Positions 6,843 to 38,591 of a DNA stretch of 44,890 bases are shown one piece after another. Each line of letters begins with the position of its first letter. Position 1 is the stretch's first letter. The DNA lies in assembly GCA_017473435.1 (NCBI GenBank), contig JAFULG010000074.1, forward strand, positions 1 through 44,890, written 5' to 3'. Below the pieces are notes generated by a model. The model worked only from the letters and a program-made list of their open reading frames with translations. It was not told where the DNA came from and made no database searches. The position numbers and the translations under genes were made by a program. Source of the DNA: Clostridia bacterium. GTDB lineage: Bacteria; Bacillota; Clostridia; Oscillospirales; Acutalibacteraceae.

Positions 6843-6969
6843 ACGGAGTTTGGGACTAAGGGGGTCCCCGAAAAGCCCGAAGGCTTTTTGGGGAGGAGGA
6901 AGCACAACGTAGCGGTGAGCTTTTCCGCAAGGAAAACGATAAGCGGAGTTTGTGCTGACGAGGTAGCGG
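6843..6969 (-). repeat. 127-base inverted repeat, copy 2
   Basis: Reverse-complement partner of 17-143 with about two differences. Together the copies flank the 457 gene, the CorC-family gene, the toxin-antitoxin pair and the whole ylxM-ffh-rpsP-khpA operon. Confidence 0.85.
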
Positions 6970-7190
6970 TCTGTTGACGTTGAGCGGTTATTTTTTTGAG
7001 CTGTCCGTGAGCTGTATAAGTAGGGCAGACGAGGAGTAATGTGAAACTTTTCCGTAGAGTACAAGTTTGCCTTTAAATAACAGTTGGGAATATTGTCACG
7101 GTGAAGCTTAGGTAAAAGCTATAAACGGAAAATTTCACCGCCACTGCGGTCTTGTTCGTACAAGGATAATGGAATAAAAGCGCGCTTTTG

Positions 7191-11014: not shown

Positions 11015-11042
11015 TTTATCCTCTCCTTTAAAATTCCGCGGA

Positions 11043-12224: not shown

Positions 12225-12245
12225 TTTTATCATCCTTTACTACGG

Positions 12246-14467: not shown

Positions 14468-14468
14468 A

Positions 14469-17749: not shown

Positions 17750-18957
17750 AACATACTCCTGTAAAGTTCAAAATAGTTTTCAGCCATAACAGCTGATGAA
17801 TATACCTTCTGCGAAAAAGCAGAAATCTCATTTTTATTAAATCTGCCCTCTTGAGAAAGACAGATTATCTCTTTCTTTAATCCCTCAACATCTCCGAAAT
17901 CACAGAATATACTGTAATCGGGAAGAGCAATCATTTCGGGACCGCCTGCCTTAAAGCCTGCAACGGGAGTTCCGCAGCAAAGGCTTTCTGCCGCCACCAT
18001 TGAAAAGGTTTCCCTTTTACTTGTAAGCACCGTAAGGTCAGCCGAAGAATAAAGCTGTGCCAATTCCTTGGCATCCTTTACCTCGCCTATATAAATCAGG
18101 TTATCGCTGTTTGTTATTTCGCCCGATTTTTTACCCGCGACAACAAAGCGATAGCCGTCATCCTTCAGCTTTTCTGCAAGCTCGTAAATATAGTAGCCAC
18201 CCTTGGGGTGCTCCTTATCCTTGCTGAACTCTGCCGTAGCGTGGAAAATCATTTTTTCCTTTCCGCTTACATACTTTTTTCTGATGCTCTCACTATATGA
18301 GGGCGTAAATGTATCCGTATCAACGCCGTTAAAAATAACGCTGTGCTCTTTATCAGAAAGCATAGGTGACCTTTTGGCTCTGTCACAAAGCCAGGGTGAA
18401 ACGGAAACAATACGAAGATTATCAAAGCCGTCAAAGGCTTTTTTCATCCTTCGGAAGGACTCTGCCGTACCGTCACGGAAAATACTTAAGGTTTCCCTTT
18501 TATAAACGGGACAGCTGCCGCAGCCTGTAAGCCATTTTTCACATTCAAAGGCATGTCCGCAGTTTGCAGTGTACATAAATTCAGCGTGAAGAGTGATGAC
18601 CGTTCTTATATTGTTCTTTTTAAGCCATGAAACAAGCTTATATATATTAACGAAATAACCGTTTATGCACTGCAGATGCACAACGTCGGGATTTTCCTTT
18701 TTTATTCTTTTTATTATACGGCGAGTGGAAAAATAACAGCCTGCATACATAATACCTGTAAGCCTTGAAAGAAGGTTGTTGGCTTTGGCATAGATTTCTC
18801 CGCAGACCTTGCTTACACCGGGAGCAGTTATTTTTTCTCCCCTACCGTAAAGCACAACGGACTCTACACCCTTACTTAAAAGGTACTCGTGTATTTCCTT
18901 TGTGATTCTGCCGGTACTGCCTTTACCGTATACACAGTTAAGTTGCAAAACTTTCAT
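17746..18957 (-). CDS. GT4-family glycosyltransferase
   Basis: A 403-residue GT-B glycosyltransferase. The N-terminal domain opens MKVLQLNCVYGKGSTGRITKEI (acceptor-binding loop) and includes PDVVHLQCINGYF and VITLHAEFMYTANCGHAFEC. The C-terminal domain has the GT4 EX7E motif in SKRETFSMVAAESLCCGTPVAGFKAGGPEM. A cysteine-rich segment (about 134-148, ANCGHAFECEKWLTGCGSC) is typical of capsule GT4 enzymes with this N-terminus. The donor sugar is unknown. AGGAAG precedes the ATG, which lies 20 bases inside the preceding gene. Confidence 0.92.
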   Translation of the reverse strand: MKVLQLNCVYGKGSTGRITKEIHEYLLSKGVESVVLYGRGEKITAPGVSKVCGEIYAKANNLLSRLTGIMYAGCYFSTRRIIKRIKKENPDVVHLQCINGYFVNIYKLVSWLKKNNIRTVITLHAEFMYTANCGHAFECEKWLTGCGSCPVYKRETLSIFRDGTAESFRRMKKAFDGFDNLRIVSVSPWLCDRAKRSPMLSDKEHSVIFNGVDTDTFTPSYSESIRKKYVSGKEKMIFHATAEFSKDKEHPKGGYYIYELAEKLKDDGYRFVVAGKKSGEITNSDNLIYIGEVKDAKELAQLYSSADLTVLTSKRETFSMVAAESLCCGTPVAGFKAGGPEMIALPDYSIFCDFGDVEGLKKEIICLSQEGRFNKNEISAFSQKVYSSAVMAENYFELYRSML

Positions 18958-20248
18958 AATTTTCTTCCTGCTTTTGTGCCGTTTTAGTTATTGCCTTATA
19001 TAAAATACTGCTGTTATGGTCGCGGTTGTGAAATTTTTCTGCCGTCTCTCTTCCCTTTGCCGATAAGCTTTTTCTTAACTCGCCGTCAGAGAAAATCTTA
19101 AATAGCATTTCCGCAAGCTCATTTTCATCTGTTACTGTTGCCGCACAGTCATTCCTCTTAAGGTGAAGCATTGAGGAAACATAATCGGGACCGAAGGCAA
19201 ACAAGGGCACTCCCGAATAAAGGCTGTCGGCTATTTTTGTTGAAACCGAGTGCCTTACAAGCTCGGCATTTTCCTTATCAAATGCCTCTGTATGTAAAAG
19301 CACATCGGAGGAAAGAAGAGCCTTTTTAAACTCCTCACCCGTAACAAAGCCGCAAAGGTTAACTGACCTTATACCGTCAAACTCACCGAGGATTTTTTCA
19401 TCCTTTTCCGAGGTATATATGTTAAGTATTCTTTCTTTACCGTCGCCTTCGTTAAGGATGTCAAGCGTCTTTCCTATCTTTGCAATTGAAATATATCTGT
19501 TACATCTGATGTTTCCGAAATAGGACATTACTCTGCCCTCATTTTCAGGAACAACGGGAGTCAGTGAATCGTCGGCACCCGTCATAACCGTAAGACCCTC
19601 TATACCAAAATGCTCACAGTACTGCTGACGGATTTCTTCGCTTATGGCTATAAGCAGAGCTGTTTTTTCCATAAGTGCGGAGATTTTCTTTCTTAAAAGA
19701 CGGATTCTGAACCTCTCAACTGAATTTTCCGGCTGAGATACAAAATAATATTCATCGCAGATATAGCTGACGATAGGTATATTACAGTAATCAGCTATTT
19801 TAAGAGCAATATCGTAAAGGAACATACCGTCACCGGGAGCTACAAAGATACAGTCAGGCTTCTGCTTATCGAGAAAGCTTTTCATTTTACCGTTGAACCA
19901 GAAGGAAGCCTTCCACATTATCTCCCTGAGAATACGGCGGTGAGTGGTTTTATTTTTTACGTTTGTGTATACTGCCTCGTCCTCTGGCTTTTCATACATA
20001 CTCTGTTCCTTTGAAATCTTCCCGACAGGAATTTCCTCACCGGGCTTACTGAAGGTAAGAAGGGAACGGAGTATTTCCTTATCCGTAACACGGTAGTATC
20101 CGTCGCAGGCGGCAATATCGGGCAAGGTAGGATAAATATATAGCTGACAAAGCTCGTCTTTTGAAAAACCCGAAAGAAGAGAAAGTAGAGTTTTACCCAT
20201 ATTATGATAGGTCGTTATTGGGTTATGGCTTAATACAAGAAGCTTCAT
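18938..20248 (-). CDS. GT-B-fold glycosyltransferase
   Basis: A 436-residue protein with a GT-B layout. The N-terminal half opens with LVLSHNPITTYHNMGKTLLSL. The C-terminal half (about 245-400) contains SYFGNIRCNRYISIAKI, LCGFVTGEEFKKALLSSDVLLHTEAFD and SVSTKIADSLYSGVPLFAFGP, in line with GT4-like nucleotide-sugar binding. ATG at 20248 is chosen because AAAGGAG lies 5 bases upstream; a frame extending to 20263 would include that site. It probably adds one sugar of the repeat unit; specificity unknown. Confidence 0.85.
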   Translation of the reverse strand: MKLLVLSHNPITTYHNMGKTLLSLLSGFSKDELCQLYIYPTLPDIAACDGYYRVTDKEILRSLLTFSKPGEEIPVGKISKEQSMYEKPEDEAVYTNVKNKTTHRRILREIMWKASFWFNGKMKSFLDKQKPDCIFVAPGDGMFLYDIALKIADYCNIPIVSYICDEYYFVSQPENSVERFRIRLLRKKISALMEKTALLIAISEEIRQQYCEHFGIEGLTVMTGADDSLTPVVPENEGRVMSYFGNIRCNRYISIAKIGKTLDILNEGDGKERILNIYTSEKDEKILGEFDGIRSVNLCGFVTGEEFKKALLSSDVLLHTEAFDKENAELVRHSVSTKIADSLYSGVPLFAFGPDYVSSMLHLKRNDCAATVTDENELAEMLFKIFSDGELRKSLSAKGRETAEKFHNRDHNSSILYKAITKTAQKQEENYESFAT

Positions 20249-20270
20249 ACTTTCTCCTTTCATGTTTTAT

Positions 20271-21605
20271 TTAAAGATTTCTGAGAAGCTCAACTGCCTC
20301 CAACGGTGCAGCCGCAACCGCCTTAAAGCCCTCTATAACAAAGTGAGCATAATCGTTAATTCTCAGATAAGCAAAGGCAACAACTGCGTGATGCCTCATT
20401 TTTATGTGGCGTCGGGACTTTTTATCAAGCTCGGGGAAGAACTGCTGCTTATAGCGGAAAAGCTCTCTTTCACCGTCAATTTTAACCTGACCTGAAGAAA
20501 GACCTCCGTCGCCTACGTGGATGTAAGCCTTTATGTAGCAACCCTTAACGTAACAAAGTCTGCCGCCGCCGAGGATAGCCTGAAGCATAAGATAAAACTC
20601 GTCACCTATATTAATCGGAGGGAAGGCGCCGATTTTTCTGATGTATTCACTTCTGAACATAAGTGAATCTGTACCCGTAAGGTGATACATAAGGTGATAT
20701 CTCAGCAAATCCTGCTTTTCATAGCTTACAAGATTTTTTCTGATTCTCTCATCGTGGAGATTATCGTTTTCATCGTAAAGCTTAAGATCGGTTATGGAGA
20801 AATCAGCTCCCGTATGCAGCATACCTGAAAGCTGATGGCTAAGCTTACCGGAAAGATATATATCGTCATCGTCAAGGAAGGTTATATATTCTCCTTCACA
20901 AGCAAAAACACCTACGTTTCTGGTCTTTGCCGAACCGAGGTTTTCCTTGTTGACAATGAGCTTTAAAATGCCTTTTTTATAAGCTTCTTCAAAGCCTTCA
21001 ATAATTGACTTAACCTTTAAATTCCACTCGCTGTCAGCGTTATCGTCAACAACAACTATTTCATAGTTATCATAATCCTGGGATAAAACCGAGGAAATTG
21101 CTCTTGTGAGAGTTTCATCTCTTCTGTAGGTTGCAATTACAACGCTGATTTTGTTTTCCCTTGAAGCAAGCTCTGTGATAAGTCCGTTATCAGTATTATC
21201 AGCTTCAGGGATTTTCTCGCTGTCTGTTTTCTTTGAAAGAGCTTTTTTGTAAAGAATGCGCACTATAAGGCTGACCGCTGCAAAGCCTACAGCAAAAACA
21301 ACCGCAAGACCTGCGTCTTTACCTGTTTCGGAATTTACGGAAACAAGAACACTGATAAGAACACCGACAGAATCAGAAATAAGACTTTTTAATAAGGAGA
21401 GCTTATTAAAAGGAAGCTCAGGATTTTTATATACGCCCAATATAAAGCGCATCACAAATATAACAGCGGCAATAATAACCACACTTATAGTAAAGTCGCT
21501 TTTTGCGCCGCAAAAAGCACAGCAAACAAGACCGATCACCGCACAAAGCAGTAAATCAATCAGTGGTACTGTTATATTGTGTATTTTTTTTCTGGTATCC
21601 GCCAT
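20271..21605 (-). CDS. GT2 glycosyltransferase with N-terminal 4-helix membrane domain
   Basis: A 444-residue chimera. Residues 1-125 contain four membrane helices, with VMRFILGVYKNPELPFNKL between helices 2 and 3. This resembles the membrane domain that precedes FlaA1/EpsC-type dehydratases and polyprenyl-P sugar transferases (FxxGLYR-like motif), which is inference. After a polar linker, a GT2 GT-A domain starts at about 151: ISVVIATYRRDETLTRAISSVLSQDYDNYEIVVVDDN, with the DXD-type motif in TFLDDDD at about 240. It is embedded in the capsule operon, 22 bases after the next glycosyltransferase in transcription order. No initiating sugar-1-phosphate transferase is visible elsewhere in the window. 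Confidence 0.88.
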   Translation of the reverse strand: MADTRKKIHNITVPLIDLLLCAVIGLVCCAFCGAKSDFTISVVIIAAVIFVMRFILGVYKNPELPFNKLSLLKSLISDSVGVLISVLVSVNSETGKDAGLAVVFAVGFAAVSLIVRILYKKALSKKTDSEKIPEADNTDNGLITELASRENKISVVIATYRRDETLTRAISSVLSQDYDNYEIVVVDDNADSEWNLKVKSIIEGFEEAYKKGILKLIVNKENLGSAKTRNVGVFACEGEYITFLDDDDIYLSGKLSHQLSGMLHTGADFSITDLKLYDENDNLHDERIRKNLVSYEKQDLLRYHLMYHLTGTDSLMFRSEYIRKIGAFPPINIGDEFYLMLQAILGGGRLCYVKGCYIKAYIHVGDGGLSSGQVKIDGERELFRYKQQFFPELDKKSRRHIKMRHHAVVAFAYLRINDYAHFVIEGFKAVAAAPLEAVELLRNL

Positions 21606-21621
21606 CCGTTTTACCCCTATC

Positions 21622-22290
21622 TTAAAATAAAAGAGAGTTAGTATTCTCCATTATTCTGTTAAATAAATCCTTGTGTCTTGTCCTGAACTTTTTCCAGTGG
21701 TTATAGCCGTCGCCGAGAAGGTGTATGTCGCTTCCCAGAGCGTAAACCGTATCCCACTCAATATAATTCTTCAGGCTCTTTTTAACAATAATATGGCTAA
21801 GACTTTCAGCGTTAAGCTGAATGAGTGCTCCGTATTCGAGAAGTCTTTCTACCTTTTCGGAAGAATATCTGTCAGCGTGGGCAAGCACAACGGTATAGTC
21901 ACCGCTTTCGCATAAAGCACCTACACTGTCAACGAGCTTTCCCGACCAATGATTAAAGGGCATTTCCATAAGAAGTATGTTTGTGTTTTCGAGGCAGAGC
22001 TTGTCAAGGTCAGGCAGCCTTTCAATTCCTTCAAAAGCAAGAATTTCTGCTCCCGTAAGAATTTTCGGTAAGCTGTCCTTTCTTTTTTCCATAAGCCTTT
22101 CAAAGCATACCTTACGTCTTTCAAGAAAAGACCCTACATTCTCTTTTTCGCCGTAATAATGCGGTGTTGCGCAGATTATATCAACTGAAGCTTCCCTTGC
22201 AAGGGTGAGCTGTGAAAAAGAGGTTTTGCTGCCGTCACTTCCGTGGTCACAGCAAGGAAGAATATGAGCGTGAAAATCTATATTTTTCAT
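21622..22290 (-). CDS. cpsB: CpsB/YwqE-family tyrosine-protein phosphatase (PHP fold)
   Basis: A 222-residue PHP-domain phosphatase. It has the N-terminal metal motif DFHAHILPCCDHGSDG and later AHADRY (about residue 145) and GSDIHLLG (about 196). In canonical members the first motif reads HILPGxDDGA/S; here the second aspartate is histidine, a possible change at a metal-ligand position. CpsB removes phosphates from the tyrosine tail of CpsD and so tunes capsule length and amount. The start is 5 bases after the cpsD stop, with no clear ribosome binding site, which suggests translational coupling. Confidence 0.93.
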   Translation of the reverse strand: MKNIDFHAHILPCCDHGSDGSKTSFSQLTLAREASVDIICATPHYYGEKENVGSFLERRKVCFERLMEKRKDSLPKILTGAEILAFEGIERLPDLDKLCLENTNILLMEMPFNHWSGKLVDSVGALCESGDYTVVLAHADRYSSEKVERLLEYGALIQLNAESLSHIIVKKSLKNYIEWDTVYALGSDIHLLGDGYNHWKKFRTRHKDLFNRIMENTNSLLF

Positions 22291-22295
22291 TTTAC

Positions 22296-23066
22296 TTAAT
22301 TTTCGGTATTTGAATAGTAATACTTGTTTGCGTACTTACTGCCGTATCTGTAGGAATATCCGCCCTTCTTGGGGTTAACATTGTTGAGAATGAAGCCACA
22401 GATTTTACCTGCAGAGGTATCAAGTGCCTTCTGTGCCGCAGCAAGCTCACCGAGCTGTGTCTTACCTGAACTTACAACAAGAACTACACCGTCAACGTTT
22501 TTAGCAATAATCTGTGCATCTGCAACCTGGTTTACGGGAGGAGTATCAATGATGATGTAATCAAAATGATTTCTCAGGAAGGTTACAACATCCTCAAACT
22601 TTGAAGAAGCAAGAAGCTCCGAGGGATTGGGAGGTATATCACCTGCAGAAATTATGCTCAGGGGAAGCTCCTCAACCTCGTTTACATAGCAGTTGTCAAT
22701 ACCTGTAAGCAGATTACTCATGCCGTTATTACCGTGAATGCGCCAGAGCTTATGAACGTTGGGCTTACGCATATCACAGTCAATAAGCAGAGTGGATTTG
22801 CCGAGCATTGCAAAGCTTACGGCAATATTTGAAGCAGTTGTGCTCTTGCCCTCAGAGGGGTTTGCACTTGTAACGGCAAAAACCTTACCGCCTTCAGTTT
22901 CCGTTGCGGCAACGGAAAAAAGAAGGTTGGTTCTCAGCTGAATATAAGATTCCTTAACGGCAAAGGGAGAATCAGCGCCGAGGATTCTTGCGCGGTTCTT
23001 TTTTACGGCTGCTATTGAAGCTGCTCTTTCCTTGCTTGATTTTTTAGTTATCTTCTTTGTTGCCAT
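22296..23066 (-). CDS. cpsD: CpsD/CapB-family tyrosine-protein kinase
   Basis: A 256-residue BY-kinase. Walker A is SANPSEGKSTTASNIAVSFA, Walker A' is LLIDCDMRKPNVHKLW and Walker B is IIIDTPPV. The C-terminal autophosphorylation cluster is tyrosine-rich (YSYRYGSKYANKYYY). The basic N-terminus has many Lys/Ser. ATG at 23066 has AAAGGAG 8 bases upstream; the 14 extra codons in the longer frame include that site and are rejected. It needs the CpsC membrane activator, encoded immediately before it with a 23-base overlap. Confidence 0.95.
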   Translation of the reverse strand: MATKKITKKSSKERAASIAAVKKNRARILGADSPFAVKESYIQLRTNLLFSVAATETEGGKVFAVTSANPSEGKSTTASNIAVSFAMLGKSTLLIDCDMRKPNVHKLWRIHGNNGMSNLLTGIDNCYVNEVEELPLSIISAGDIPPNPSELLASSKFEDVVTFLRNHFDYIIIDTPPVNQVADAQIIAKNVDGVVLVVSSGKTQLGELAAAQKALDTSAGKICGFILNNVNPKKGGYSYRYGSKYANKYYYSNTEN

Positions 23067-23838
23067 TGAGAACTCTCCTTTCTTTTGCAATATTCCATGT
23101 GGGTGCATTTGAACCGTTATCTTCGATTGTAGGTATAGTACCTATAATGGGAAGATCGGAAATTCTTTCAATTTCTTCTGAGGTATAAATAGTTGAGTCA
23201 GCCATAAATCTGATAAGCACTAAAAACGCCATAGCTGCAGCACCGATAATAAAACCGATTATAAGATTTTTAGTAAGGCTGGGTGAGGATTTCTGAGTGG
23301 GAAGCTCGGGGCTGTCAACTATTTCAACTCCGCCGCCCTTGAATACTCGTGTGATTTCCTGACCTGCGATTGAAACGTAGGCATCAGCAACCATTTTCGA
23401 GGTCTGGGGGCTGTCCGATGTTACCTCAACCTTGATAAGCTGTGTACCCTCAATTTTTGAAACTCTTACCATTGAGCTGAGCTTCTTCTCGGTGAAATCT
23501 GAAGCATCGGGGTTTTCAGTTCTGATATTTTCAAGTACAGCGTCAACAATCTTGTTGCTTGTAAGGATGTGCTTGTAGGTTTCTGCAAGGTTTGCAGCGG
23601 CTACAAGGTCACTGTTATTGATAACACCTGTCTGATTTGACTGCAGGTTTGTATAAACGTACATAGTTGTGAAGGATTTATACATAGGAGTAATAAAAGC
23701 CTTTGTAACTACGCCCGAAGCTCCTGCGGCGATAAGGCCTGCAACTACAATCCACATTACCTTTGAAAACATCAGCTCAATTATTTCGGAAATTGTTATT
23801 TCCTGCTTGAAGTCTGAATTAAAAAATCCTCTTTTCAT
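23044..23838 (-). CDS. cpsC: CpsC/YveK-family polysaccharide co-polymerase
   Basis: A 264-residue Wzz-domain protein. Helix 1 (about residues 25-48) and helix 2 (about 188-208) bracket an extracytoplasmic domain with ...TMYVYTNLQSNQTGVINNSDLVAAANLAETYKHIL. The Pro-rich segment SPELPTQKSSPSLTKNL before helix 2 is typical. It sets chain length and activates the CpsD kinase. AAAGGAG lies 7 bases before the ATG. The start overlaps the stop of the upstream nucleotidyltransferase by four bases (ATGA), linking the capsule operon to the peptide cassette. Confidence 0.95.
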   Translation of the reverse strand: MKRGFFNSDFKQEITISEIIELMFSKVMWIVVAGLIAAGASGVVTKAFITPMYKSFTTMYVYTNLQSNQTGVINNSDLVAAANLAETYKHILTSNKIVDAVLENIRTENPDASDFTEKKLSSMVRVSKIEGTQLIKVEVTSDSPQTSKMVADAYVSIAGQEITRVFKGGGVEIVDSPELPTQKSSPSLTKNLIIGFIIGAAAMAFLVLIRFMADSTIYTSEEIERISDLPIIGTIPTIEDNGSNAPTWNIAKERRVLNGNKEDN

Positions 23839-25037
23839 TTTTCTGCTCCTTTACTTTCAGAGTAAGTTTTATCAAAACTGAAGCTTAGTCCTACATAGGC
23901 GAGGTTTTCCTCATACCTTTCAACATCAGCCTCATTAAGTTTACCTACATTGGTGATTTTTGTTTTGTGCTTTTTGTATTCGGGCAAGGCACATATAATA
24001 CGGTATAGCCAGAACAAGGGAAGAAGAAAGGGCAGCTTCCGAAGCACGGGGTACTTGTTTTTCATATCCTCTGCCGAGGGAAAAAACAGCCCGATTTTCT
24101 TATCCGTAACAGCCTTTTTACTGCTGCCGCTTTTCTGTGCATCTCTCAAAGCCGAGGAAAGCTCATTTTTTTCCGCCGAGCCGAAGCTTCCGCTGCAGAT
24201 TATCCGTTCGGAAATAAACCTTGATTTTTCGTCGAAGGTACCGTCCTCAAACCAGCAGGAAATAACCTTCAGTATATTACCGTAAAATTCCGAAAGTCCG
24301 AGCTTTTCAAGCTCATTTTCAACATAAGCTCTGTCAATATCCTCTGCACGGGTAAGAAAATATAAATCCGTAAGGTGCTTTATTCCTATTCCGCCGTCAC
24401 GGTAGTGCTTAGCAAAATGGGTGAACATATATATGAGAATATCCTCTTTGTTCATCACGTAGCAGGAGCCTTCGCTCTTTTTCGCCTTGCTCCAGCCGTC
24501 ACCGTAATAAGCAAAGTAGTCCTCGTTGTAAGAGGGTATCAGGAATTTGTGAAGCTCCAGGTGGAAATTCCCCTTGTACCAGTTATATTCGTGGTCACTT
24601 TCCTCACCGGGTGTATATCCCATAGATGTGAGAATTGCAGAAATTTTATCATACTGCGAGGGCCTTATGAGTATATCCGCATCGGTCATTGTGCGCCACT
24701 CGGGATGAGGATAAAGCTCTTTAAGCACCGTACCCTTAAGGGGCATAAAGTCCACTTTATTATCCTGAAAGCTTTCAGTAAGCTCTTTTACCGCCTTGAG
24801 CTGATACTCATGATAAATAAGATAGGTGCACGCCGTTTTTTTAAGCCTGAGTATCGATTCGTCTTTTTTATCCGCACCGCACAACAGAGCGCCTTCAAGA
24901 GCTATCGCCGCAAGGTTGTGTCCCCTTAATATACGGGAAATCTTTTTCAGATCACAGTCAGAGGAAAGAACACCGTTTTCGTTTTTCACAGCACTTCTGA
25001 CGATTGTGATAATATCCGTCATAAATCCGTCGGTCAT
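23835..25037 (-). CDS. Nucleotidyltransferase-family protein (PF14907-like)
   Basis: A 400-residue protein of the uncharacterised nucleotidyltransferase_5 group. The diagnostic block at about residues 98-125 is DFMPLKGTVLKELYPHPEWRTMTDADILI, with the DxD metal pair of the nucleotidyltransferase fold. In lasso-peptide loci this family co-occurs with HPr-kinase-like proteins, and the pseudomycoidin PsmN protein of this type adds hexoses to a phosphorylated C-terminal residue. Here the same kinase family is encoded four genes upstream. GGAGGAG precedes the ATG. The stop overlaps cpsC (ATGA), so it is both the last cassette gene and coupled to the capsule. A role in polysaccharide modification is an alternative. 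Confidence 0.85.
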   Translation of the reverse strand: MTDGFMTDIITIVRSAVKNENGVLSSDCDLKKISRILRGHNLAAIALEGALLCGADKKDESILRLKKTACTYLIYHEYQLKAVKELTESFQDNKVDFMPLKGTVLKELYPHPEWRTMTDADILIRPSQYDKISAILTSMGYTPGEESDHEYNWYKGNFHLELHKFLIPSYNEDYFAYYGDGWSKAKKSEGSCYVMNKEDILIYMFTHFAKHYRDGGIGIKHLTDLYFLTRAEDIDRAYVENELEKLGLSEFYGNILKVISCWFEDGTFDEKSRFISERIICSGSFGSAEKNELSSALRDAQKSGSSKKAVTDKKIGLFFPSAEDMKNKYPVLRKLPFLLPLFWLYRIICALPEYKKHKTKITNVGKLNEADVERYEENLAYVGLSFSFDKTYSESKGAEK

Positions 25038-25061
25038 ATTCTCTCCTCCTTCCTTCAGTCT

Positions 25062-26729
25062 TTATATTTCATATTTTATAAGGTTTATTCTGCCTTTTTC
25101 TATTTCCAGAACTCCGTCACAAAGCTCCTCGGAAACCGGTCTGTGAGTAACAATAAAGCAGGTTCTGTTTTTAAGCGTCTTTATCCTTTCCAGTACCATA
25201 CTCTCTGTACGGCTGTCGAGAGCCGAGGTAATCTCGTCGAAAAGCATTATGGGAGCACCGCTTAAAAGCGCTCTTGCGATGGCAATTCTCTGTGCCTGAC
25301 CCTCGGAAAGACCTCCGCTGTTTTCCGTTAAAACCGTATCAAGTCCGTCGGGAAGCGAGGACAGATATTCGTCCATACAGCTGACATATACAGCCTGATT
25401 TATCATCTCCTCATCGGAATCGGGATTTCCGAGAAGAAGGTTGTCGCGTATTGTTCCGCTTAAAAGCAGATTGCCCTGGGGCACGTAGGAGAAAATTCCT
25501 CTGTGCTCTTTGTTGAGGATTGTTTCACCCTCGCTGTTTCTGAGATAAAACTCACCCTCATCGGCTTTATAGATACCGAGCATAAGCTTTAACAGTGTGC
25601 TCTTGCCGATGCCCGATGAGCCTTTTATCAGAATGAAGCTGCCCTTTTCTATTTCAAAATCAGCCTTATCAAAAACCGTATCCCTGTCATAAGTAAAGCT
25701 GAGGCTACGGCAGCCGACCGTCTGTGTTTTTTCGTAAAGTCCGCGGATATCCGCAAAGCTTTCTCTTTTATCTTCCCTGATATCGAATATCTCTTTAAGT
25801 CTCTCCCAGGCGGCAATCATTGCAACATACTGAGGTATTGTTCCCGAAAGATTTGTAACGGGACTCTGAAGCTGCAGTACAAGCTGTGTAACAGCCGTAA
25901 GTCCGCCAAAGGTTGTACTGCCGTTGATAATACCGACACTGCACCACGCCAGAGCCGCAAAGGAGGCAAGATAAGACATTGAGCTTACACCGAGATTAGC
26001 AAGAATATTGATATTCTTTCTCTTCATCTGCAAAGAAAAACGCTGTCCGAGAAGAGCATCGGCACGGCCAATCACTTCCCTTTCAGCTCCCATTGCCTGA
26101 ACAACAATGAGCTTTTCAAATATCTCCTGAAAAAAAGAAGTGACAACGCCGTCAGCACTGCTGATTTTTTTATGAAGTCCCTTAAGGGAAATTCTCATAA
26201 TACCGGTAAGAGCAACCACGGCAAAGCCTGCAGCAAGTATCACAAGGGCAAAGCCTTTTTCAAGCTTCCATAAAGCGAAAAAGGAAATCGCCATTTTTAA
26301 TACCATAGAAACAAAGCCGGGAATTACATTGAAGATACCGTCGGTGAGTATTCTTATATCGTTTGAAGCGCGGTTTATAAGCTCACCGCTGTGGTAAGCC
26401 GATGCCTTACTGAAATCGGCAGAAACAACGCTTTTCATAAAATCACGCTTGAGGTCTCTGTCAACCTGACCGATAAGCCTTTCCTTAAGGAAACGGAAAA
26501 GACCGAAAAAAACAAGAATAGCAAGGATAATTCCGCCCTGTATAAGACAGGCATCGGTAAAGCTGTCTTTATCACCGCTTACTGCGGTATCAATAACGTT
26601 CCTTGAGCCTAAAGCAAAGGATACGGAAAGCGAAGCAACGGCACAGTTAGCCGCAACCATAATGAAAAGTGCAGGTATTCTGTTTTTTATCATAGAGAAA
26701 ATCTGCAGAATACTGCTTTTTTGCTTCAC
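25062..26729 (-). CDS. ABC exporter, fused permease and ATPase
   Basis: A 555-residue type IV ABC half-transporter. The N-terminal membrane domain has six helices within about 1-300. The nucleotide-binding domain spans about 330-550: Walker A IKGSSGIGKSTLLKL, Q-loop FSYVPQGNLLL, signature GGLSEGQAQRIAIARAL (LSEGQ instead of LSGGQ), Walker B IMLFDEITSALD, switch VTHR. There is no N-terminal C39 peptidase domain, so a leader would have to be removed by another protein. The start is GTG with GGAGG 9 bases upstream. It lies 3 bases after the peptidase-like gene, consistent with export of a modified peptide; a lipid or glycan substrate is possible. Confidence 0.92.
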   Translation of the reverse strand: MKQKSSILQIFSMIKNRIPALFIMVAANCAVASLSVSFALGSRNVIDTAVSGDKDSFTDACLIQGGIILAILVFFGLFRFLKERLIGQVDRDLKRDFMKSVVSADFSKASAYHSGELINRASNDIRILTDGIFNVIPGFVSMVLKMAISFFALWKLEKGFALVILAAGFAVVALTGIMRISLKGLHKKISSADGVVTSFFQEIFEKLIVVQAMGAEREVIGRADALLGQRFSLQMKRKNINILANLGVSSMSYLASFAALAWCSVGIINGSTTFGGLTAVTQLVLQLQSPVTNLSGTIPQYVAMIAAWERLKEIFDIREDKRESFADIRGLYEKTQTVGCRSLSFTYDRDTVFDKADFEIEKGSFILIKGSSGIGKSTLLKLMLGIYKADEGEFYLRNSEGETILNKEHRGIFSYVPQGNLLLSGTIRDNLLLGNPDSDEEMINQAVYVSCMDEYLSSLPDGLDTVLTENSGGLSEGQAQRIAIARALLSGAPIMLFDEITSALDSRTESMVLERIKTLKNRTCFIVTHRPVSEELCDGVLEIEKGRINLIKYEI

Positions 26730-26732
26730 CTT

Positions 26733-27170
26733 TCAGTTCCTCCCCTTTAAAATTCTGCGTATTTTGTTTATAAGCCTTCTTAATATTCTTCTTAAGCTTA
26801 TATAAGCAAGATAAGGCCTTGATTTCATCTTTTTTTCGCCGTAGCATCTGCCCCTTCTTTCAAAGGAGGTAACTACGCCTATAAGCTGTTCATATTTTAT
26901 ATTCGTTTCACGGTAAAGCTGATTGTCACCTATTATCTCCAGAGTCTCGCCCACACGTACAACGCGGTGAAGCACAAAGGAACCGTCATCTCTTCTGAAA
27001 AAAACAATATCGTTTTTTCTGACCTCGCCCTTTACGGGGCTTAACGTAACGGTATCTCTCCCCTGTCTGAACAAAGGCAGCATACTTTCTCCCGACGGAG
27101 AAAAGGTAACTGCTTCACCGGAGGAAAGACTCTCTTCTATCACAGAGATTATATCAGCAAAACGGGTCAT
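26733..27170 (-). CDS. S24/S26 signal-peptidase-like protein
   Basis: A 145-residue protein with the catalytic serine motif FSPSGESMLPLF (Ser29), then GEVRKNDIVFFRRDDGSFVLHRVVRV and GDNQLYRE. His68 in the LHRV motif replaces the usual lysine, as in SipW/Sec11-type Ser-His peptidases. It lacks the membrane helix expected of a signal peptidase. The C-terminus (about 115-145) is a strongly basic amphipathic helix that could hold it to the membrane. ATG at 27170 is 4 bases after the pqqD-like stop; a TTG four codons earlier is an alternative, and neither has a strong ribosome binding site. Position suggests processing of the peptide. Confidence 0.8.
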   Translation of the reverse strand: MTRFADIISVIEESLSSGEAVTFSPSGESMLPLFRQGRDTVTLSPVKGEVRKNDIVFFRRDDGSFVLHRVVRVGETLEIIGDNQLYRETNIKYEQLIGVVTSFERRGRCYGEKKMKSRPYLAYISLRRILRRLINKIRRILKGRN

Positions 27171-27174
27171 CTTA

Positions 27175-27432
27175 TTATTCAAGGAAACCGGACTCCTTCA
27201 GCTTATCTGTAAATTCACCTACGCACTTTTCAGCCGTAGCTCTTTCAACCTCATACTCTTCAAGAAGAGCCTCGACAAGCTCGTCACAGGCTACCTCCTG
27301 CTCAAGCTTTTTCCAAAGAAAAGCACCTGTACCGTTAAGAGTAATCATACTGTCAAAGTTAAGTCCACCCTCGGGAATCACAACAGTTTCGCCTGCAATA
27401 CTGCGAAGAACATATCCACTTTTAATTTTCAT
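27175..27432 (-). CDS. PqqD-family peptide-binding protein
   Basis: An 85-residue PqqD/RRE-type protein: SGYVLRSIAGETVVIPEGG, then FDSMITLNGTGAFLWKKLE and an Asp/Glu-rich helical C-terminus (DELVEALLEEYEVERATAEKCVGEFTDKLKESGFL). This is the standalone form found in RiPP clusters, where it binds the leader peptide and presents it to modification enzymes (lasso B1 proteins use the same fold). ATG at 27432 is preferred because AAAGG lies 9 bases upstream. It overlaps the end of the kinase-like gene by 11 bases, so translation is coupled. Confidence 0.9.
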   Translation of the reverse strand: MKIKSGYVLRSIAGETVVIPEGGLNFDSMITLNGTGAFLWKKLEQEVACDELVEALLEEYEVERATAEKCVGEFTDKLKESGFLE

Positions 27433-28138
27433 ATATATCATCCTTTTTAAATCGGGTCATTGCCTCTTTTGAAACAAATGCCGCCTCTTTATCCGTATTG
27501 CACCTTAACAGCCATACAGGTACCTCTGTAAGTAGGTCTGAAAGCAGCTGAGTAAGCTTTAATCTCAGCTCGCTGCTGTGAGGTCTTACTGTCTGATTAA
27601 GAATTGCAAAAAGGGCTTTTCTGCCCTTTAAGGGGACAATCGAATTATCCTTATTTCTTTCAACTACCGCAATGCCGCCCAAGGGCACACGAAGATTTAC
27701 GTTAAGGTTGGTTTTGCCGCTCCAGGGCGTACCGTAAGCGTACCATACGCCATCCTCAGACCTTAATGCCGGCTTATCGTCGTTAAGAATAAAAGCTCCT
27801 TCAAAATTCTCGCACCAAAGCCTTGTATGGGTTGATTTGCCCGTACCGCTGGGCGCTGTAAAAAGATAAGCCTTACCCTCATAAACAACGGCAGAGGAAT
27901 GAAGAAGCATACCGTCAAAATTCAGCAGCTTATTGTAAAAATCAGCTCCCGTTCTCATATATTCGGCGCTGTCAGGGCCTACAAGCTCCTCGGGAACGAC
28001 CTTTGAAAACCTTTCACCGTCAACAGCTATATCACAGCTGTCGCTATGGTCACATTCAAATTTTTCTGCCTGCTTCTCTGTTTTGCCGAAGGTGTCCATA
28101 CGAACCGTCAGACCGGCAATTTTATAAGTTTTAAGCAT
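27422..28138 (-). CDS. HPr-kinase-like (HprK-fold) protein
   Basis: A 238-residue protein. The C-terminal two thirds match the HPrK-type P-loop: LLHSSAVVYEGKAYLFTAPSGTGKSTHTRLW (about residues 77-107), ILNDDKPALR and WYAYGTPWSGKTNLNVN. It lacks the N-terminal domain of true HPr kinase/phosphorylase. Related proteins in lasso clusters (for example paeninodin) phosphorylate the precursor's C-terminal serine. ATG at 28138 has GGAAGGAG about 5 bases upstream; a start 45 bases earlier lacks one. It is the first enzyme gene after the small precursor-like gene, separated by a strong hairpin. Phosphorylation of the peptide is inference. Confidence 0.88.
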   Translation of the reverse strand: MLKTYKIAGLTVRMDTFGKTEKQAEKFECDHSDSCDIAVDGERFSKVVPEELVGPDSAEYMRTGADFYNKLLNFDGMLLHSSAVVYEGKAYLFTAPSGTGKSTHTRLWCENFEGAFILNDDKPALRSEDGVWYAYGTPWSGKTNLNVNLRVPLGGIAVVERNKDNSIVPLKGRKALFAILNQTVRPHSSELRLKLTQLLSDLLTEVPVWLLRCNTDKEAAFVSKEAMTRFKKDDIYEN

Positions 28139-28231
28139 ACGGACTCCTTCCTTTTTCTTGCTCAGAAAAGGCTTTATTTTCATAAAAGCTTTTCTCAGAA
28201 AGATAAATCACCCTGTTTAAAAACCGACGAT

Positions 28232-28257
28232 TCCCGGACGGCTTGCGCCGTCCGGGA
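28232..28257 (-). terminator. GC-rich hairpin after the precursor-like gene
   Basis: TCCCGGACGGC and GCCGTCCGGGA form a perfect 11-pair stem with a 4-base loop, just after the 28268 stop. On the minus strand no U tract follows directly (a T run appears about 8 bases later). It fits a partial terminator or mRNA-stabilising stem that would raise precursor over enzyme expression. Confidence 0.7.
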
Positions 28258-28267
28258 GAAAACTAAG

Positions 28268-28387
28268 TTAGATGATTACGCCTTCGTCGGGATCGATGGG
28301 ATCAAGAACGCCTGTGCTGTCGTTCATAACGTCTTCCATCTCGAACTTTTCTACTGTGATTTCGGGATTTTCAAAAGTCTTTTTCAT
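28268..28387 (-). CDS. 39-residue RiPP-precursor-like peptide
   Basis: This small gene has GGAGGTG ending 7 bases before its ATG. The peptide starts MKKTFENPEITVEKF, followed by EMEDVM, and ends in NDSTGVLDPIDPDEGVII. The (Y/F)xxP near the N-terminus plus spaced acidic and hydrophobic residues resemble the leader motif bound by PqqD/B1 proteins in lasso clusters. The C-terminal half is Asp/Pro-rich, without cysteine, and has one Ser and one Thr in DSTG as candidate phosphorylation sites. It lies directly before the kinase, PqqD, peptidase and exporter genes on the same strand. It could be a modified peptide or a small structural protein; function is inference. Confidence 0.75.
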   Translation of the reverse strand: MKKTFENPEITVEKFEMEDVMNDSTGVLDPIDPDEGVII

Positions 28388-28432: not shown

Positions 28433-31400
28433 TTATTTCTGAAGAAGATGGTCTTCGGCAGCAATCTGGTAAACGAGGAATGCTTTTGCAAGAGCCTTCA
28501 TTTCAGCTGCAATATTATTTCCGAGAACTCTTCTTACATAATCGTGTGCACTGTCTGTGAAGATCTGGCTGTAGTGGTCATTGCCCTGTGCATCCTTGTA
28601 GTAAACTACAACTGCGAATGCATCTCTGAGATCCTTTGCAGAAACACCGCCGAGAACTGTACGGTAGCAGTTGATACCTGCTGATGCGCTGTTATCTGCG
28701 TCGTAAGCGAGCTGTGCTATGTGAGCATTTTCTACTGTAAGCTCTGCGTATGCGTTGTATTCGCTTTCGTTCCAGTAAAGAACCTTCATTTCGGTTGCAC
28801 CGGCGATTGCTTCGCTCTGTACATCGAAGTAGAAGTTATGTCTGATGTTACCTGCGAAGGTAAGTGATGAACCTGACTTTACGAATGCTGTATCGTTTGT
28901 AAGAGCGAACTTGGAGCTGTCAAACTCGGGAAGAGCCTGAATAAGCTCATCGCTGTAGTTAACAACCTGAAGCTCTTTTGCCATCCAGCTGTTCATAAGA
29001 GTATCTGTCTTATACTTGAAGTGAAGCTGAGCTGCTGCACCGTAGTTCATAAGAGTTGCGGCAAGGGTCTTCATTGTTTCAGCATATACTGCATTCTCGT
29101 CAAGAACTGCCTGGCAGTAGATAACGGGGCTGAATACACAGGATTCTGTGTAAACTACTGTGCCGTCATTGAGAACTACGTAAGCAACAGCAACCTGATT
29201 GTCAATCATGTTCTTTGCAGGGATACCGTCGCTCTCGCCGTAGTAATAACCGTTGTCACTACGCTGTGCAAGATCTCTTACATGGTAAGGTGCTGTTGTG
29301 ATATCGTGTACATCAGTGCTATTATACTCTTCTTCGCTCCAGATGAGAAGACCTGTTGAGGAAATTCTTCCGGCAAATTCTGTAAAGTCATAATAGTAAC
29401 GGATCTTGATGATATCTCTGAAGAGGAGTGAACGTCCGGCAAGGTATTCCTTTTCTTCCTTTTCACCTTCGGTGATTGTAAGTGTACCGTCTGCAACAGT
29501 TACGTTGTAGTTCTTGTCAGCTGTGTAGGAAGCTGTGATAGCGTATTCGCCAACCTCTTCGCCCTCTTCACGGCTGATGATGATACCGAGGTCGTCGCCT
29601 TCAACAAGACCTTCTACGGTGTATGTGAATGCGGGATCTGCTGCACCTTCAACCTTTTCAGCGTCATCAACGGTAATTGTTACATCCTTGGGAAGAATTG
29701 TAAGAGTACCGCGGCTGAGGTCTGTGATGTAGTTTTCAGCAACACATACAGTTGCGATTTCATAGATGCCTGCATCTGTGGGAAGCTCGCCGTTGATTAC
29801 AACGCCTGCATTGCCGTACTGTGCAATGTGACCGGCAATCTTGTTAAGAGCATTCTTAACGTTTGCGTTTTCAACCTTAGCTGCAAGCTGACTGAACTCG
29901 TCAGCAAGGTTAGCTGCTGTGTAATCCTTTACGGGAATGAGGTCAACGATGTTCTTCATATCTTCGGGGAAGATGATGTTTACATTGCCCTCTGAGTAGA
30001 TAGCTGCGAGGTAATCTGTAGCTACTGCTGAAGATGTATCAGCAAAGTGGCCCTTACCGTCGTAGGTTACTGTTGTGTCGATAACGTCGAAGTCAAGGAG
30101 TGTCTTTGTGATTACAAGAACGCCCTGCTTGCTGCCCATGCCGAGGAGCTTACCGTCTTCGTCACGCTTTACAAAGTCAGCGATTACTGTGTAAGTACCT
30201 GCATTTGTGGGAGCAACTGTGCTGTTGTACATTTCAAAGTCGCCTTCAACGCCGATGTATCTGATTGTCATTTCACCGCCGTTTGCAAGGTTACCGCTCA
30301 TATCGTAAGCAACTGCTTCAACAGCCTTGGGTGTTCCGTCATATTCTCTGAGGAACTTGCCGTTTTCGTTAGCGTCAACGAATTCTACAGTGTAAGCTTC
30401 GGGAACGATGATGTAGGAACGGATGATGGGCTTTGCTACATAGGTGATTGCATCAATGTCATTTGTATAAGCAACCTCTGTGTATGCACCGATTGATGCT
30501 GAAGCTTCCTTTGAAAGGTAGATAACATCATCAGCGTTGATACCTGCAAAGATTGTGCCGACTGTTACGTTTTCAGCAGCTGCTGTTGCGCCGAAGTCGA
30601 ATGCCTTTGCTTTTTCAACTGTAAATACTGCGTTTTCGTCAACCTGGTTCCAGCTGAGGGTTGTTGTCTGTACGTCGGGAACAATTACAAGAACGCCTGC
30701 GTCAATTGAGGGGATGTAATCGGGCTCGCAAACGATAGCTGCAACAAGGTATGCGCCTACATCTGTGAGTTCTGCATTATCCTTGAAGGTAAGAGTTGTA
30801 CCTTCGGGTAATGCCTTGAGGTTTTCAATAAGAACTGCGATTTCCTCGTTCTCGATATTTGCTGCGTCAAGAAGCTGTTCAACCTTTTCGATTACGGGAA
30901 GAGCCTCAAAGAGCTTAACGCCGTTTTCGTATGCTTCGGGGATGTACTTCTTGAAGAGATTGTCAAGTCTTTCGGGGAAGTCAACATTAGCTGTGCCTGA
31001 AAGGGTAACGATCTGATCGTCAACCTTAATACCTGATGTGATGATGATGAACTCATCAATTTCCTCAGGAGAAGCTGTAACGTTGAGAGTCTTGGGCTCA
31101 CCGTCGTAAACCTTTACAGCGGACTCAACTGCTACTTCGCTTTCAGCGGGAAGGATTGCGATAGCGGCAACATTCATACCAACGCGTACATAGTCACCGT
31201 TTTCGTTTGTTTCGGCATAGGTTGCGATAGCTGAGTATGCACCTGCATGAACGGGAGCTTCCTTACTGTTGTAGGTTGTGCCATCGTTCATAACGCCGTA
31301 GTAGTGAATTGAAATGTTTTCTGAGGGAAGAGCTTCGCCTGCCATTGAAACTGCTTCAGCCTCAACTGACTTCTCTGTACCGTCATAGGTGAACATAAAG

Positions 31401-34400
31401 CCGTTATTGTTGTTTTCGTCAACGAAGTTAACTGTTGCTGTTTCGGGAGCAAGAACAAATGCTCTTACAATGGGAACTGCATAGAACAGCTCATTACCCC
31501 AGTCAAGCATATAAGCAAGCTCTGCATAAGCACCTGCCTGAGCAACAGGCTCTCTTGATGTGATAACCTCACCGTTGAGGTTTACACCTACAAATACGTG
31601 TTCAACCTCTTCCTTTGCAAGTGCAAAGTCTTCATCGCTGAGGTCGTTCTGAACAACTGTTGCGCAAAGATCGTATTCGCCGCTGAGAACTGCAGGAAGA
31701 GTGATGATACCGTTTTCATCGTTGATGATCCAGTCAAGCTCAACCTGAGTAGCGTTGGGAGTGATTACAAGGTAGCCTACATCAGCTGATGTTTCGTAGT
31801 TACCGTCAGCAGTAACTGCACCTACAATGTAAACACCGATATTTGAGGGAACAAGGTCACCGTTAACCTTGATTCTGAGGTTGGGAAGCTCAAGGCCTTC
31901 TGCGATTGATTCAAGAGCCTGGATGAGGCTGTTTACGGTTTCACTGCTGAAGCCAAGTCCGTCAAGAAGCTCGTCGCCGAGGTTTGCAATCTTTGAAAGT
32001 GATTCTGAAAGCTCCTGAAGGCTCATTTCACCGCTGAAATATTCACCGAGCTTACCGGGAAGTCTGAGCTGAACATAACCTTCGAGGTCGTTTTCAACGT
32101 CAACGCCGATAACAAAGTCGATTGTATTGATGCCTTCGGGATCAGTTACGGGATCAATGTTGATGTCGCTGCCGAATGCTGCAACCTGCGAGTTGATTGT
32201 AACGCTTGAGGGAGCCTTTTCAATCTCGAGGGCTACAGTCTTTTCGCAAGGTCTGTAGTCATCGTTACCTGCAAATGCAAGAACTGCTTCGTAGCTGCCT
32301 ACGTCAAGACCTGCAACCTTTGTCTTGCAGATGATTTCGCCTTCGGTTTCAGTGCCTTCTGACATAAGAACTGCTTCAAATGCCTTTACAACGTCTTCAC
32401 CTGAAGCACCGTACTTAACTGCTGCTGAATCAAGAGAAGCGATTTCAGCAATCTTTCTTGTATCCTTGATTGTAACTGTTGTTTCTGTTTCGCCGATAAG
32501 CCACTTTGCATCCTTATAGCTTACCTTGATTCTTTCTGTTGAACCGTCACCGTTTGAACCGAATTCTCTTGCACCGTAGTACTTAAGGTATTCAGCGTTC
32601 TTGTAGTCATTCTTGAGATCGTCAAGAGTAACTTCCTTGATTTCCTCGCCTACTTCAAGCCAGAGCTCTGAAAGGGGAAGAGAAATCTTCTGACCGGGAA
32701 TTTCGATTGAACCGATTGAGAATGAGGGAATTTCGATATCAAGAGTAGTAGCCTCTCTTGCAAGATATGTAACCTTGATTTCAGCATCGTCTTCTCTTGC
32801 GGGAGCGTTTACTGCTGCGTCATAAATAACCTTTACATCGGGAGCTTCTGCACCTGATCTGAAGGGAACCTTTGCATCCTCAGCAAGGTCAAACTTTGCA
32901 GGAACACTTGTAACTGTTACTGTGTAGTTTACGTGCTCTGCAGCAACAAACTGAGCTGTTGCAGCTGTGCTGTTATATGAAAGGGGAAGAGTAACTGCAG
33001 TGTTGTCATCACCTGCTACAACGATTGATTCAATAGCGTAGCCTGCTGCAGGTGTAGCCTTTACTGTGTAGTTTACGTTACCTACAACCTCAAAGCTTGT
33101 GCCTGCCTTACCGTTGAAGAGAACCTGTGCACCGTCGGAAACGATAGTAACATATGTCTTTTCGGGAACGTCAGTTACTTCGATGTTGTTAAGAACAAGC
33201 TGTGCGGGCTTATAGCTTTCGCTACCGTCATAAGTGATTGTAACATCAACATAGGACTTACCGTCTGCTTCTTCAACCTCGCCTACTGTAAGGATATAAT
33301 CTGCATCTGCAAGCTCCTCACCGTCTGCGATAACCTTTACCTTAAGAGCTTCTGTAAGAACTGACTTAAGCTGATCTTCACTTAAGAATCTTACAGCCTC
33401 TGTAAGATCTGCTGTTTCAATAGAGGTTGCAGTTCTGGGATCAACAAGCACGATTTTTGCTGATGCTGATACATCCTGATACCGAATACCGTCGTTGTCG
33501 TAGCTGATTGTAACGTTTACCGTTGTGCCGTCAGCAACATCCTTAAGAGCAACTTCCTTACCGTTTACTGTGTACTTGATTGAGTGGCCTGCACCGTAAA
33601 CAGCCATAAAGTCGGGAGCTGCGGATACGATAAGAGCATCGAATACTTCCTTATCTGTGGGAACCTTTGCGCTGTACTTGCCGTTAACGCCGTCGTACTT
33701 ATCAAATACAACTGTATCGTCTGTAAGGTTGATAGCGGCTGTGCCGTAAACAACCTCAACGGTGTACTTGCCGTCTGTTACAGTTCTGAAGCTTGTCTTT
33801 GCGTTGATTGATTCAAGAGCTGTAGCGTCGATATTATGGTATGTAACTGCGCCGTTTACCTTGTTGCCTGCAGCATCCTTAACGATGATGTCAGCAACAT
33901 ATTCCTTTGAAAGAACATTGGGTGTAACAACGATAGTATAATCTGTCTTTTCTCTGTAAAGGCCGTTCTTTTCAGCAGTAATGTCTGCGCCTGCCTTTAC
34001 CTGAGTCTTTGAATCAAGACCGCTGATTGTTACGTTGTAGCTTGTGTCAATAACTGTAAGAGTTACTTCATTTGAAACGATTTCACCGTACTTTGCGTCA
34101 GAGTACTTGATTCTGATTTTTTCAGAACCCTTCTGACCGAAGTTATGAGTGATACCGTTAATATTAACTGAAAGGCTATCGTTGATATTCTTCCAACCGA
34201 GATCACCGATAGAAAGACCAACGGGCTTGTATTCGATTGTTACATCGGAAGCCTTGAGGTCTGCAGGAACGGATGAGCCGTAAACTGCGTTGAATACAAG
34301 AGCCTTAAGCTTTGCATCGTCATCTCTGCCGTAGCAGTAGTTGATTGTGCCGTCCTTTGCTGTGATTGAGCCGTTTGCTTCATAGGTAACCTTTACGGTG

Positions 34401-38233: not shown

Positions 38234-38370
38234 TTTTTGTTTTCCACCTTTCATAATATTGTTTTTTGCCGTGTATATAAACTCCCGAAACGGGAACAGA
38301 TTCCGTTTTTTCTCCTCCCTTTTTCTTCAGCGTTCCCCCCAAAAGGGCAGACCACCTCATAGTCTTAGTA

Positions 38371-38399: not shown

Positions 38400-38532
38400 G
38401 AGAATTATCAAAAAAACTGCACGATTTATTAATATAGTATACATATTTTTTTAATGTTTTTGACGAATAAACTAAAAAAGAAAAATAGGTGTGGTGATTT
38501 CATCAATTCCGCAGGAATTGTATCACGTTATC

Positions 38533-38561
38533 TTGTGTTTAATATAATTGTATGCTATAAT
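38533..38561 (+). promoter_or_regulatory. Promoter of the RhuM-family gene
   Basis: TTGTGT at 38533-38538 and TATAAT at 38556-38561 have a 17-base spacer and an extended -10 TGC. Initiation near 38568 rules out the upstream frame start at 38454. Confidence 0.7.
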
Positions 38562-38591
38562 TCCCCTATAATCAAAACCGAGGATGAGCTT

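Follow-up and report, generated by a model that had tools for sequence, protein, structure and literature searches.

Introduction

The closest precedent for the six-gene cassette considered here was published by Popov et al. in Nature Communications in May 2026, where a Paenibacillus gene set was found to make linear polyphosphorylated peptides (LPPs). In that system (Popov et al., 2026; PMC13381572), LPPs are made by LppA, LppK, LppB, LppS, LppD and LppN, encoded in capsule loci and functioning respectively as precursor, HprK-like kinase, PqqD-type recognition element (RRE) of ribosomally synthesized and post-translationally modified peptides (RiPPs), SipW-like peptidase, MsbA-like exporter and nucleoside triphosphate (NTP)-transferase. 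LppK places several phosphates on Ser3 of the core, and LppS, an SpI-type enzyme (Ser29/His68/Asp93), cuts off the leader aided by LppB; a crystal structure of LppB with the leader is available (9X8Z), and Asp70 of LppB hydrogen-bonds to the leader Tyr. Deletion of the NTP-transferase gene left the detectable LPP products unchanged (Popov et al., 2026). The cassette described here lies on contig JAFULG010000074.1 of a Clostridia bacterium (GCA_017473435.1), of which positions 1 to 44,890 were analyzed (the window, 44,890 nt in its entirety). It is quite likely an LPP-like RiPP cassette, the peptide of which would be phosphorylated, cleaved, exported and functionally tied to the large secreted protein encoded next door.

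Some of the enzyme families are also known from elsewhere. Rumen lasso clusters carry genes for HPr kinase, PqqD and nucleotidyltransferase (PMC7533575), and these three families are common to the window and to paeninodin-type and rumen lasso clusters. The term "signal peptidase" is absent from the text of PMC7533575; in the genome of the window, neither lasso B2 nor C was found, and the cassette has an SpI-type peptidase instead. The kinase and PqqD protein also show distant similarity to ScmC/ScmD of SynChlorMet and to HprK-related kinase A (NCBIfam), with scores far under the curated cut-offs; unlike SynChlorMet, no radical SAM family was found among the window genes scanned.

The enzymes of such a cassette have thus been known since May 2026, and what is new is the type of precursor, the dispersal of precursors over the genome and their association with large proteins that are mostly secreted. 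The clostridial precursors differ from the LPP system, as far as the latter is described in the source used, in this pairing and in often being encoded apart from the cassette; the main text of Popov et al. (2026) contains no word beginning with clostrid, orphan, secreted or surface. Among the matches listed in a search of open-licence PubMed Central articles (titles and the starts of abstracts), no paper dealt with clostridial LPPs or with a pairing of surface proteins and LPP-like precursors.

Gene Content and Order of the Cassette

An earlier sequence-only reading of the window had listed six minus-strand genes, several of them overlapping, and all were recovered at the reported positions as open reading frames (ORFs) with the corresponding translations. 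They encode, in order, the 39-aa LppA-like precursor (28268..28387), an LppK-like, HprK-like peptide kinase (27422..28138), an LppB-like RRE of the PqqD type (27175..27441; PF05402, 1.7e-17), an LppS-like leader peptidase resembling signal peptidases of the SipW/archaeal type (26733..27182; PF00717 (Peptidase_S24), 1.1e-7), an LppD-like, MsbA-like ABC exporter (25062..26729; PF00005 and PF00664, its ATPase and membrane domains), in which Pfam and NCBIfam scans found no peptidase domain, and an LppN-like nucleotidyltransferase (23835..25037; PF14907, 1.5e-43). The kinase and PqqD genes overlap by 20 nt, and those of PqqD and the peptidase by 8 nt. These are the six functions of the Paenibacillus alginolyticus LPP system, in the order of the published construct lppA-K-B-S-D-N, and the LPP core set of SpI-like peptidase, discrete RRE, HprK-like kinase, NTP-transferase and MsbA-like exporter is present in full (Popov et al., 2026). 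A capsule-type locus and an aromatic-xxP leader are likewise shared, as is a predicted linear product, no dedicated macrolactam cyclase being found among the genes. With the same six functions published as LPP, the cassette can no longer be called undescribed, as it had been at first.

The kinase ORF has a possible start at 28183, but the ATG at 28138 is preferred because it is preceded by AAGGAG. No Pfam match to the kinase was obtained at E<=0.1, its NCBIfam matches all fell under the cut-off (ScmC, 25.5 of 125 bits; HprK_rel_A, 16.2 of 200), and comparison of its profile with solved structures gave no relative above noise; the 39-residue peptide was likewise left unassigned by both Pfam and NCBIfam at their cut-offs. 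The motifs GxGKSTH and NDDKP are nevertheless kept in most of 20 aligned kinase sequences. A kinase tree split off a second group, mostly of approximately 285 aa and accompanied by Cys-rich peptides, and left the neighbors of the window kinase unresolved. With regard to the peptidase, the initial assignment as a Ser-His enzyme is borne out by the invariance of Ser33, His72 and Asp86 across 18 aligned sequences, the window included. The 39-residue spacing of Ser33 and His72 is that of S29 and H68 in LppS, and D93 of LppS may be the counterpart of Asp86 (Popov et al., 2026). The peptidase profile matched solved signal peptidases weakly (best 0.0067), and a sequence search for solved relatives of the PF14907 protein returned none at E<=1.

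The Precursor and Its Co-occurrence With the Kinase

The 39-residue peptide is preceded by a Shine-Dalgarno-like GGAGG and comprises the leader motif FENPEITVEKFEMEDVM, a candidate phosphorylation site at Ser24 and the acidic tail DPIDPDEGVII. Scanning for motifs in the vicinity of the kinase overlooked many precursors, and profiles were used in its place. The first of these (A2), built on 21 precursors including that of the window, matched the window peptide at E 1.1e-12, and this was the sole match at E<=0.01 in its own genome (G000; 2.56 Mb, 96.9% complete). Applied to 25625 small ORFs, the final profile, which was trained on its own matches, returned 83 matches at E<=0.01, and it returned none when these ORFs were reversed. 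The resulting clostridial leader consensus is YxxPxxxxxxFxxxDVIxxS, of which the window has the version FENPEITVEKFEMEDVMNDS. Among 69 distinct precursors, position +1 is Y in 91% or F in 6%, with P(+4) in 94% and F(+11) in 90%, a conservation of P and F that is partly built in because the motif used to choose the initial seeds fixed these two residues. Further columns are D(+15) at 80%, V/I(+16) at 85% and S(+20) at 77%, the Ser lying outside the seed-picking motif. The core sequences are variable; 77 of the 83 matches have distinct last 25 residues. The conserved Ser, Ser24 in the window, is situated 16 residues past the leader Pro, and this candidate site may be compared with the phosphorylated S3 of LppA, 15 residues past its leader Pro (Popov et al., 2026).

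The distribution of precursors was followed in a family sample of 120 genomes, of which 56 were positive for homologs of the kinase, and in an order sample of 295 genomes, of which 87 were kinase-positive (repeated searches were taken as the same draw, given the same genome handles), with thresholds for precursors, searched with profile A2, of E<=0.01 in the family genomes and E<=0.001 order-wide. Loci were drawn from 60 DNA stretches around kinases of the family sample, from named loci (the best 80 of at least 578 found) and from a later addition of 40 stretches, nearly all around distant precursor matches. Within the family, a precursor was found in 30 genomes, all 30 being kinase-positive (p 4e-13), and within the order in 63 genomes, 57 of them kinase-positive (p 1e-31), p values that are too strong because the genomes are related. 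A kinase of the window's own group (best E below 1e-50) is present in 55 of the 57 order genomes with both. At the level of loci, 128 with a kinase of this group were considered (48 family and 80 named, some in both sets). PqqD and/or peptidase genes are near the kinase in 93, and a precursor lies within the fetched DNA in 31 of these 93 cassette loci, compared to one of the 35 loci lacking a nearby PqqD or peptidase gene. Precursors are often found on other contigs or far off, with nine matches in one genome (G073), eight in another (G087) and five in a third (G075); mining only around the cassette therefore misses many precursors in these bacteria.

Probable Recognition of the Leader

When a profile of 18 PqqD sequences was compared with solved structures, matches were obtained to TbiB1 (5v1u; 6.7e-11, 45.7 bits), LppB (9x8z; 5.8e-7, 33.0 bits) and PbaB1 (9x90; 1.9e-6, 31.4 bits). 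Transfer of the LppB Asp70 column to the PqqD set by sequence alignment located Asp in 79 of 94 aligned sequences and Cys73 in that of the window, which is counted among the 94. A Phe leader together with a residue other than Asp occurs in the window (Cys), L091 (Ala) and L118 (Ser), and a Tyr leader together with Asp in 22 loci, several of which are near-duplicates and one of which belongs to the second kinase group. This pairing of Phe with loss of Asp has a one-sided p of 0.02-0.03, and it comprises few independent events because the Phe cases are close relatives. Nor is it free of exceptions: a Tyr leader is found without Asp in L092, L119 and L133, as well as in L093 with a peptide below threshold, and Asp is retained with a Phe leader in L074. 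A Phe leader served by an RRE devoid of the Asp contact nonetheless constitutes a natural test of RRE specificity. The earlier proposal that the 39-residue peptide is the substrate is thus backed by genome co-occurrence and, more weakly, by the Phe/Asp-loss pairing, and the cassette probably produces a lasso-less, linear, phosphorylated RiPP from this peptide.

Pairing of Precursors With Large Secreted Proteins

The peptide of the window starts 45 nt past the stop of a gene encoding a giant secreted protein of 3273 aa (28433..38254, minus strand), with a signal-like start and an MBG_2 domain (Pfam). Its C-terminal domain (28436..29005, minus strand), without a Pfam match there, is of a type that recurs in proteins encoded upstream of precursors. 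The sequence-only reading was silent on this neighbor, and also on a strong hairpin between the peptide and kinase genes.

The arrangement is a recurrent one. Removal of duplicates reduced the 83 precursor matches to 78, and for 73 of these the available upstream DNA exceeded 400 nt. In 64 of the 73, an ORF of no fewer than 300 aa lies upstream on the same strand, at most 400 nt away (56 different ORFs), the distance being within 46 nt in 46 of the 64. A signal-like start was recognized by a crude test in 47 of the 64 upstream ORFs, some of the others being cut by the end of the stretch or contig. Secreted-like ORFs were found upstream of 49 of 78 precursors (duplicates kept) compared to 267 of 2127 control genes from the same DNA (p 7e-24); a few of the upstream genes (L196, L197, L203) look like ones for housekeeping enzymes. 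A C-terminal domain from a small set of types was present in 43 of 58 upstream proteins, the remaining 15 having none, vs. 23 of 1397 other ORFs of at least 250 aa, but the domain profiles were seeded from the upstream proteins and so these counts show recurrence and do not constitute an independent test. One type, A5, was detected in 23 of the 120 family genomes, the window's own not among them, and 19 of the 23 are kinase-positive (p 1.4e-4). Pfam searches with eight upstream proteins identified List_Bact/InlB-type repeats, a PKD-like domain or a transglutaminase domain, and nothing in three of the eight.

This paired arrangement with a giant secreted protein hints at a function at the cell surface. 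With precursors behind large, mostly secreted proteins, several precursors per genome and a kinase nearly always present, a testable question of surface biology is posed. The biological role of LPPs is given as unknown so far (Popov et al., 2026), and the clostridial pairing provides a clue to it. Downstream of the cassette, an exopolysaccharide/wall-polymer locus (10025..23838, minus strand) encodes Wzz, a CpsD-like kinase, CpsB, glycosyltransferases, Wzy_C, a flippase-type protein, LicD, epimerases and LytR-CpsA-Psr; with these genes following it, the cassette forms the head of a polysaccharide locus.

Proposed Pathway and Its Alternatives

Based on these associations, the PqqD protein would grip the aromatic-xxP leader of the 39-residue precursor for the HprK-like kinase to add one or more phosphates to Ser24, 16 residues past the leader Pro. 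The signal-peptidase-like enzyme would then take off the leader, the phospho-Ser may be further decorated by the PF14907 enzyme with a nucleotidyl or sugar-phosphate group, and the MsbA-like pump would export the finished product. Gene content, homology, co-occurrence, the secreted-protein pairing and the weaker Phe/Asp-loss pairing are observed here directly; phosphorylation, cleavage and export would apply by analogy with the Paenibacillus system (Popov et al., 2026). The phosphopeptide would most likely act at the cell surface with the giant secreted protein and the polysaccharide made downstream, although such a surface role, taken alone, is a tentative proposal given slightly less than even credence.

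A number of observations weigh against this pathway. The published LPP leader, YxxPxVLxHQxIxFETxxS with the scan motif Px9Fx[T/A], differs from that of the clostridial precursors, which have six residues and not nine between P and F (Popov et al., 2026); given this spacing, and despite a nearly equal Pro-to-Ser distance, the system is named LPP-like and not LPP. The precursor profile compared with solved chains gave only chance matches and did not retrieve the LppA leader, and the PqqD of the window as a single query matched LppB at only 0.0094, ranked under a designed repeat protein. Six order genomes with a precursor have no kinase match (G182, G190, G225, G353, G362, G383); the peptidase is present in G190 and G383 and not in the other four, and G362, 81% complete, has eight precursor matches. 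Conversely, no precursor match was found in 26 family genomes and 30 order genomes out of the 56 and 87, respectively, that are kinase-positive, and the term kinase-positive takes in the second kinase group (the only one in G018) and contig-end fragments (the only matches in G344). The expectation from the sequence-only reading that a small gene is always adjacent fails, in that only 22 of the 93 cassette loci have a recognizable precursor on the same strand as the kinase and no more than 1.5 kb from it. Finally, neither the end product nor the function of LPPs is known even in Paenibacillus (Popov et al., 2026).

The 71 cassette loci in which no recognizable precursor lies 1.5 kb or less from the kinase would be explained if the cassette modified another target, such as a surface protein or polysaccharide intermediate, with the small ORF a by-stander or regulatory, and in some loci (e.g., L054, L060, L094) small lipoprotein-like proteins with Ser/Thr-rich linkers are indeed encoded directly before the kinase. 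Set against the genome-level co-occurrence of precursor and kinase, the conserved RRE-type leader motif and Ser, the Phe/Asp-loss pairing with PqqD and the experimental precedent of LppA (Popov et al., 2026), this explanation is considered improbable. Exported bacteriocins or signaling peptides acting on other cells would also be expected to have a dedicated exporter and variable core sequences, as observed here, and many RiPPs are antimicrobials. The pairing of precursor genes with large, mostly secreted proteins, the polysaccharide locus adjoining the window precursor and the presence of up to nine precursor matches per genome argue otherwise, and it is doubtful, at a low probability, that the mature phosphopeptide has such a function.

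The sharing of PqqD, HprK and NTP-transferase families with lasso clusters (PMC13381572 and PMC7533575) would permit a third origin, by decay of a lasso-peptide cluster with loss of B2 and C. The absence of both, first noted for the window, extends to its genome as assembled: no match to PF13471 (lasso B2) was found at E<=0.001, and the only PF00733 match, of 41 residues, is situated in GMP synthase (PF00958, 1.4e-35). In the order sample, eight of the 295 genomes have PF13471 at its cut-off, of which only G127, with 26 bits at the cut-off itself, is kinase-positive; at E<=0.001, PF13471 is detected in 45, and the kinase in five of these. A lasso origin was consequently rejected as highly improbable.

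Hairpins, Shared Tails and a Possible Adaptor Function

The LPP-like cassette also has a GC-rich hairpin between the peptide stop and kinase start (28231..28258, minus strand), with a U-run that starts several nt past the stem; the 76-nt stretch containing it folds at -28.7 kcal/mol (z -4.5). Seven cassette loci in which a precursor immediately precedes the kinase were chosen by hand and folded, and each showed a strong hairpin between the two genes (stretch z, -3.9 to -6.6). A loose script counted terminator-like hairpins after 46 of the 83 precursors, compared to 67 of the 286 control ORFs and nine of 300 points taken inside ORFs. The notion that the window hairpin is a plain terminator was dropped; it is counted by this looser script and omitted by a standard scan that requires a U-run next to the stem. 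It may be a partial terminator or mRNA stabilizer, and would fit high expression of the surface protein and peptide with lower expression of the enzymes.

In two loci, the adjacent secreted protein contains the nine C-terminal residues of the precursor once more, at the very C-terminus in L118 and 37 residues before the C-terminus in L102, and each repeat has four synonymous and no non-synonymous differences. SLH domains are present in both of these proteins and in the corresponding neighbors of L137 and L169 (the latter from Acetivibrio alkalicellulosi DSM 17461); encoded beside the cassette (L102, 9048-9935; L118, 7936-9075; L137, 8711-9985; L169, 8643-9791), they have linkers and short acidic/aromatic tails. 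Seven or more residues are shared with a protein of the same locus by two of the 83 precursors (permuted mean 0.05, max 1), but a general rule of tail sharing was rejected when four cases at five or more shared residues were found vs. a permuted mean of 4.4. The window tail has no twin found in its own genome, and two further matches have two mismatches each. By a rule set after examples had been seen, acidic-aromatic tails were recognized in 12 of 95 small secreted-like proteins encoded close to precursors or kinases vs. 15 of 437 distant ones (p 9e-4), with a lipobox-like motif present in five of the 12.

Because such tails recur in SLH neighbors and small secreted-like proteins, LPP-like peptides might be envisaged as adaptors that link large surface proteins to the wall or to polysaccharide, a rather unlikely proposal. 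The end bearing the phospho-Ser, which the PF14907 enzyme might have extended, would be attached to an envelope polymer and the acidic/aromatic tail would dock the C-terminal domain of the large protein; SLH-domain proteins and lipoproteins with tails of this kind would be alternative anchors for that dock, and one cassette would mature several dispersed precursors. If true, the adaptor would represent a sortase-independent, RiPP-based means of placing proteins on the Gram-positive surface.

Neighboring Genes and Related Loci

Within the polysaccharide locus, the LicD-family gene (PF04991, 8.8e-54; 14469-15281) may mean a phosphate-decorated polymer. A RhuM-family gene (PF13310, 1.3e-110; 38454-39575) is divergent from the giant secreted-protein gene, and a large YobI-like P-loop NTPase of 1167 aa (PF20693, 9.5e-104) is encoded at 40673-44176.

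Kinases of the second group, in family loci L077, L080-L084, L087, L089 and L090, often occur together with PqqD and Cys-rich peptides (one example is MKKKYESPKIIFESFKLSSSIAAGC... in L090), mostly without a signal-peptidase gene, and these loci look like a separate RiPP-like family. A further combination is found in L041, where a radical SAM/SPASM protein (5646-7016) and small Cys-rich peptide (ORF end near 5573) adjoin an LPP-like cassette and look like a separate radical-SAM RiPP system. Loci with kinase, PqqD and peptidase also occur in metagenome-assembled genomes (MAGs) with records titled planctomycete, Lentisphaeria, Planctomycetales and Thermoguttaceae (L117, L133, L138, L139); the range of the cassette may extend past Bacillota, or these loci may be mis-binned.

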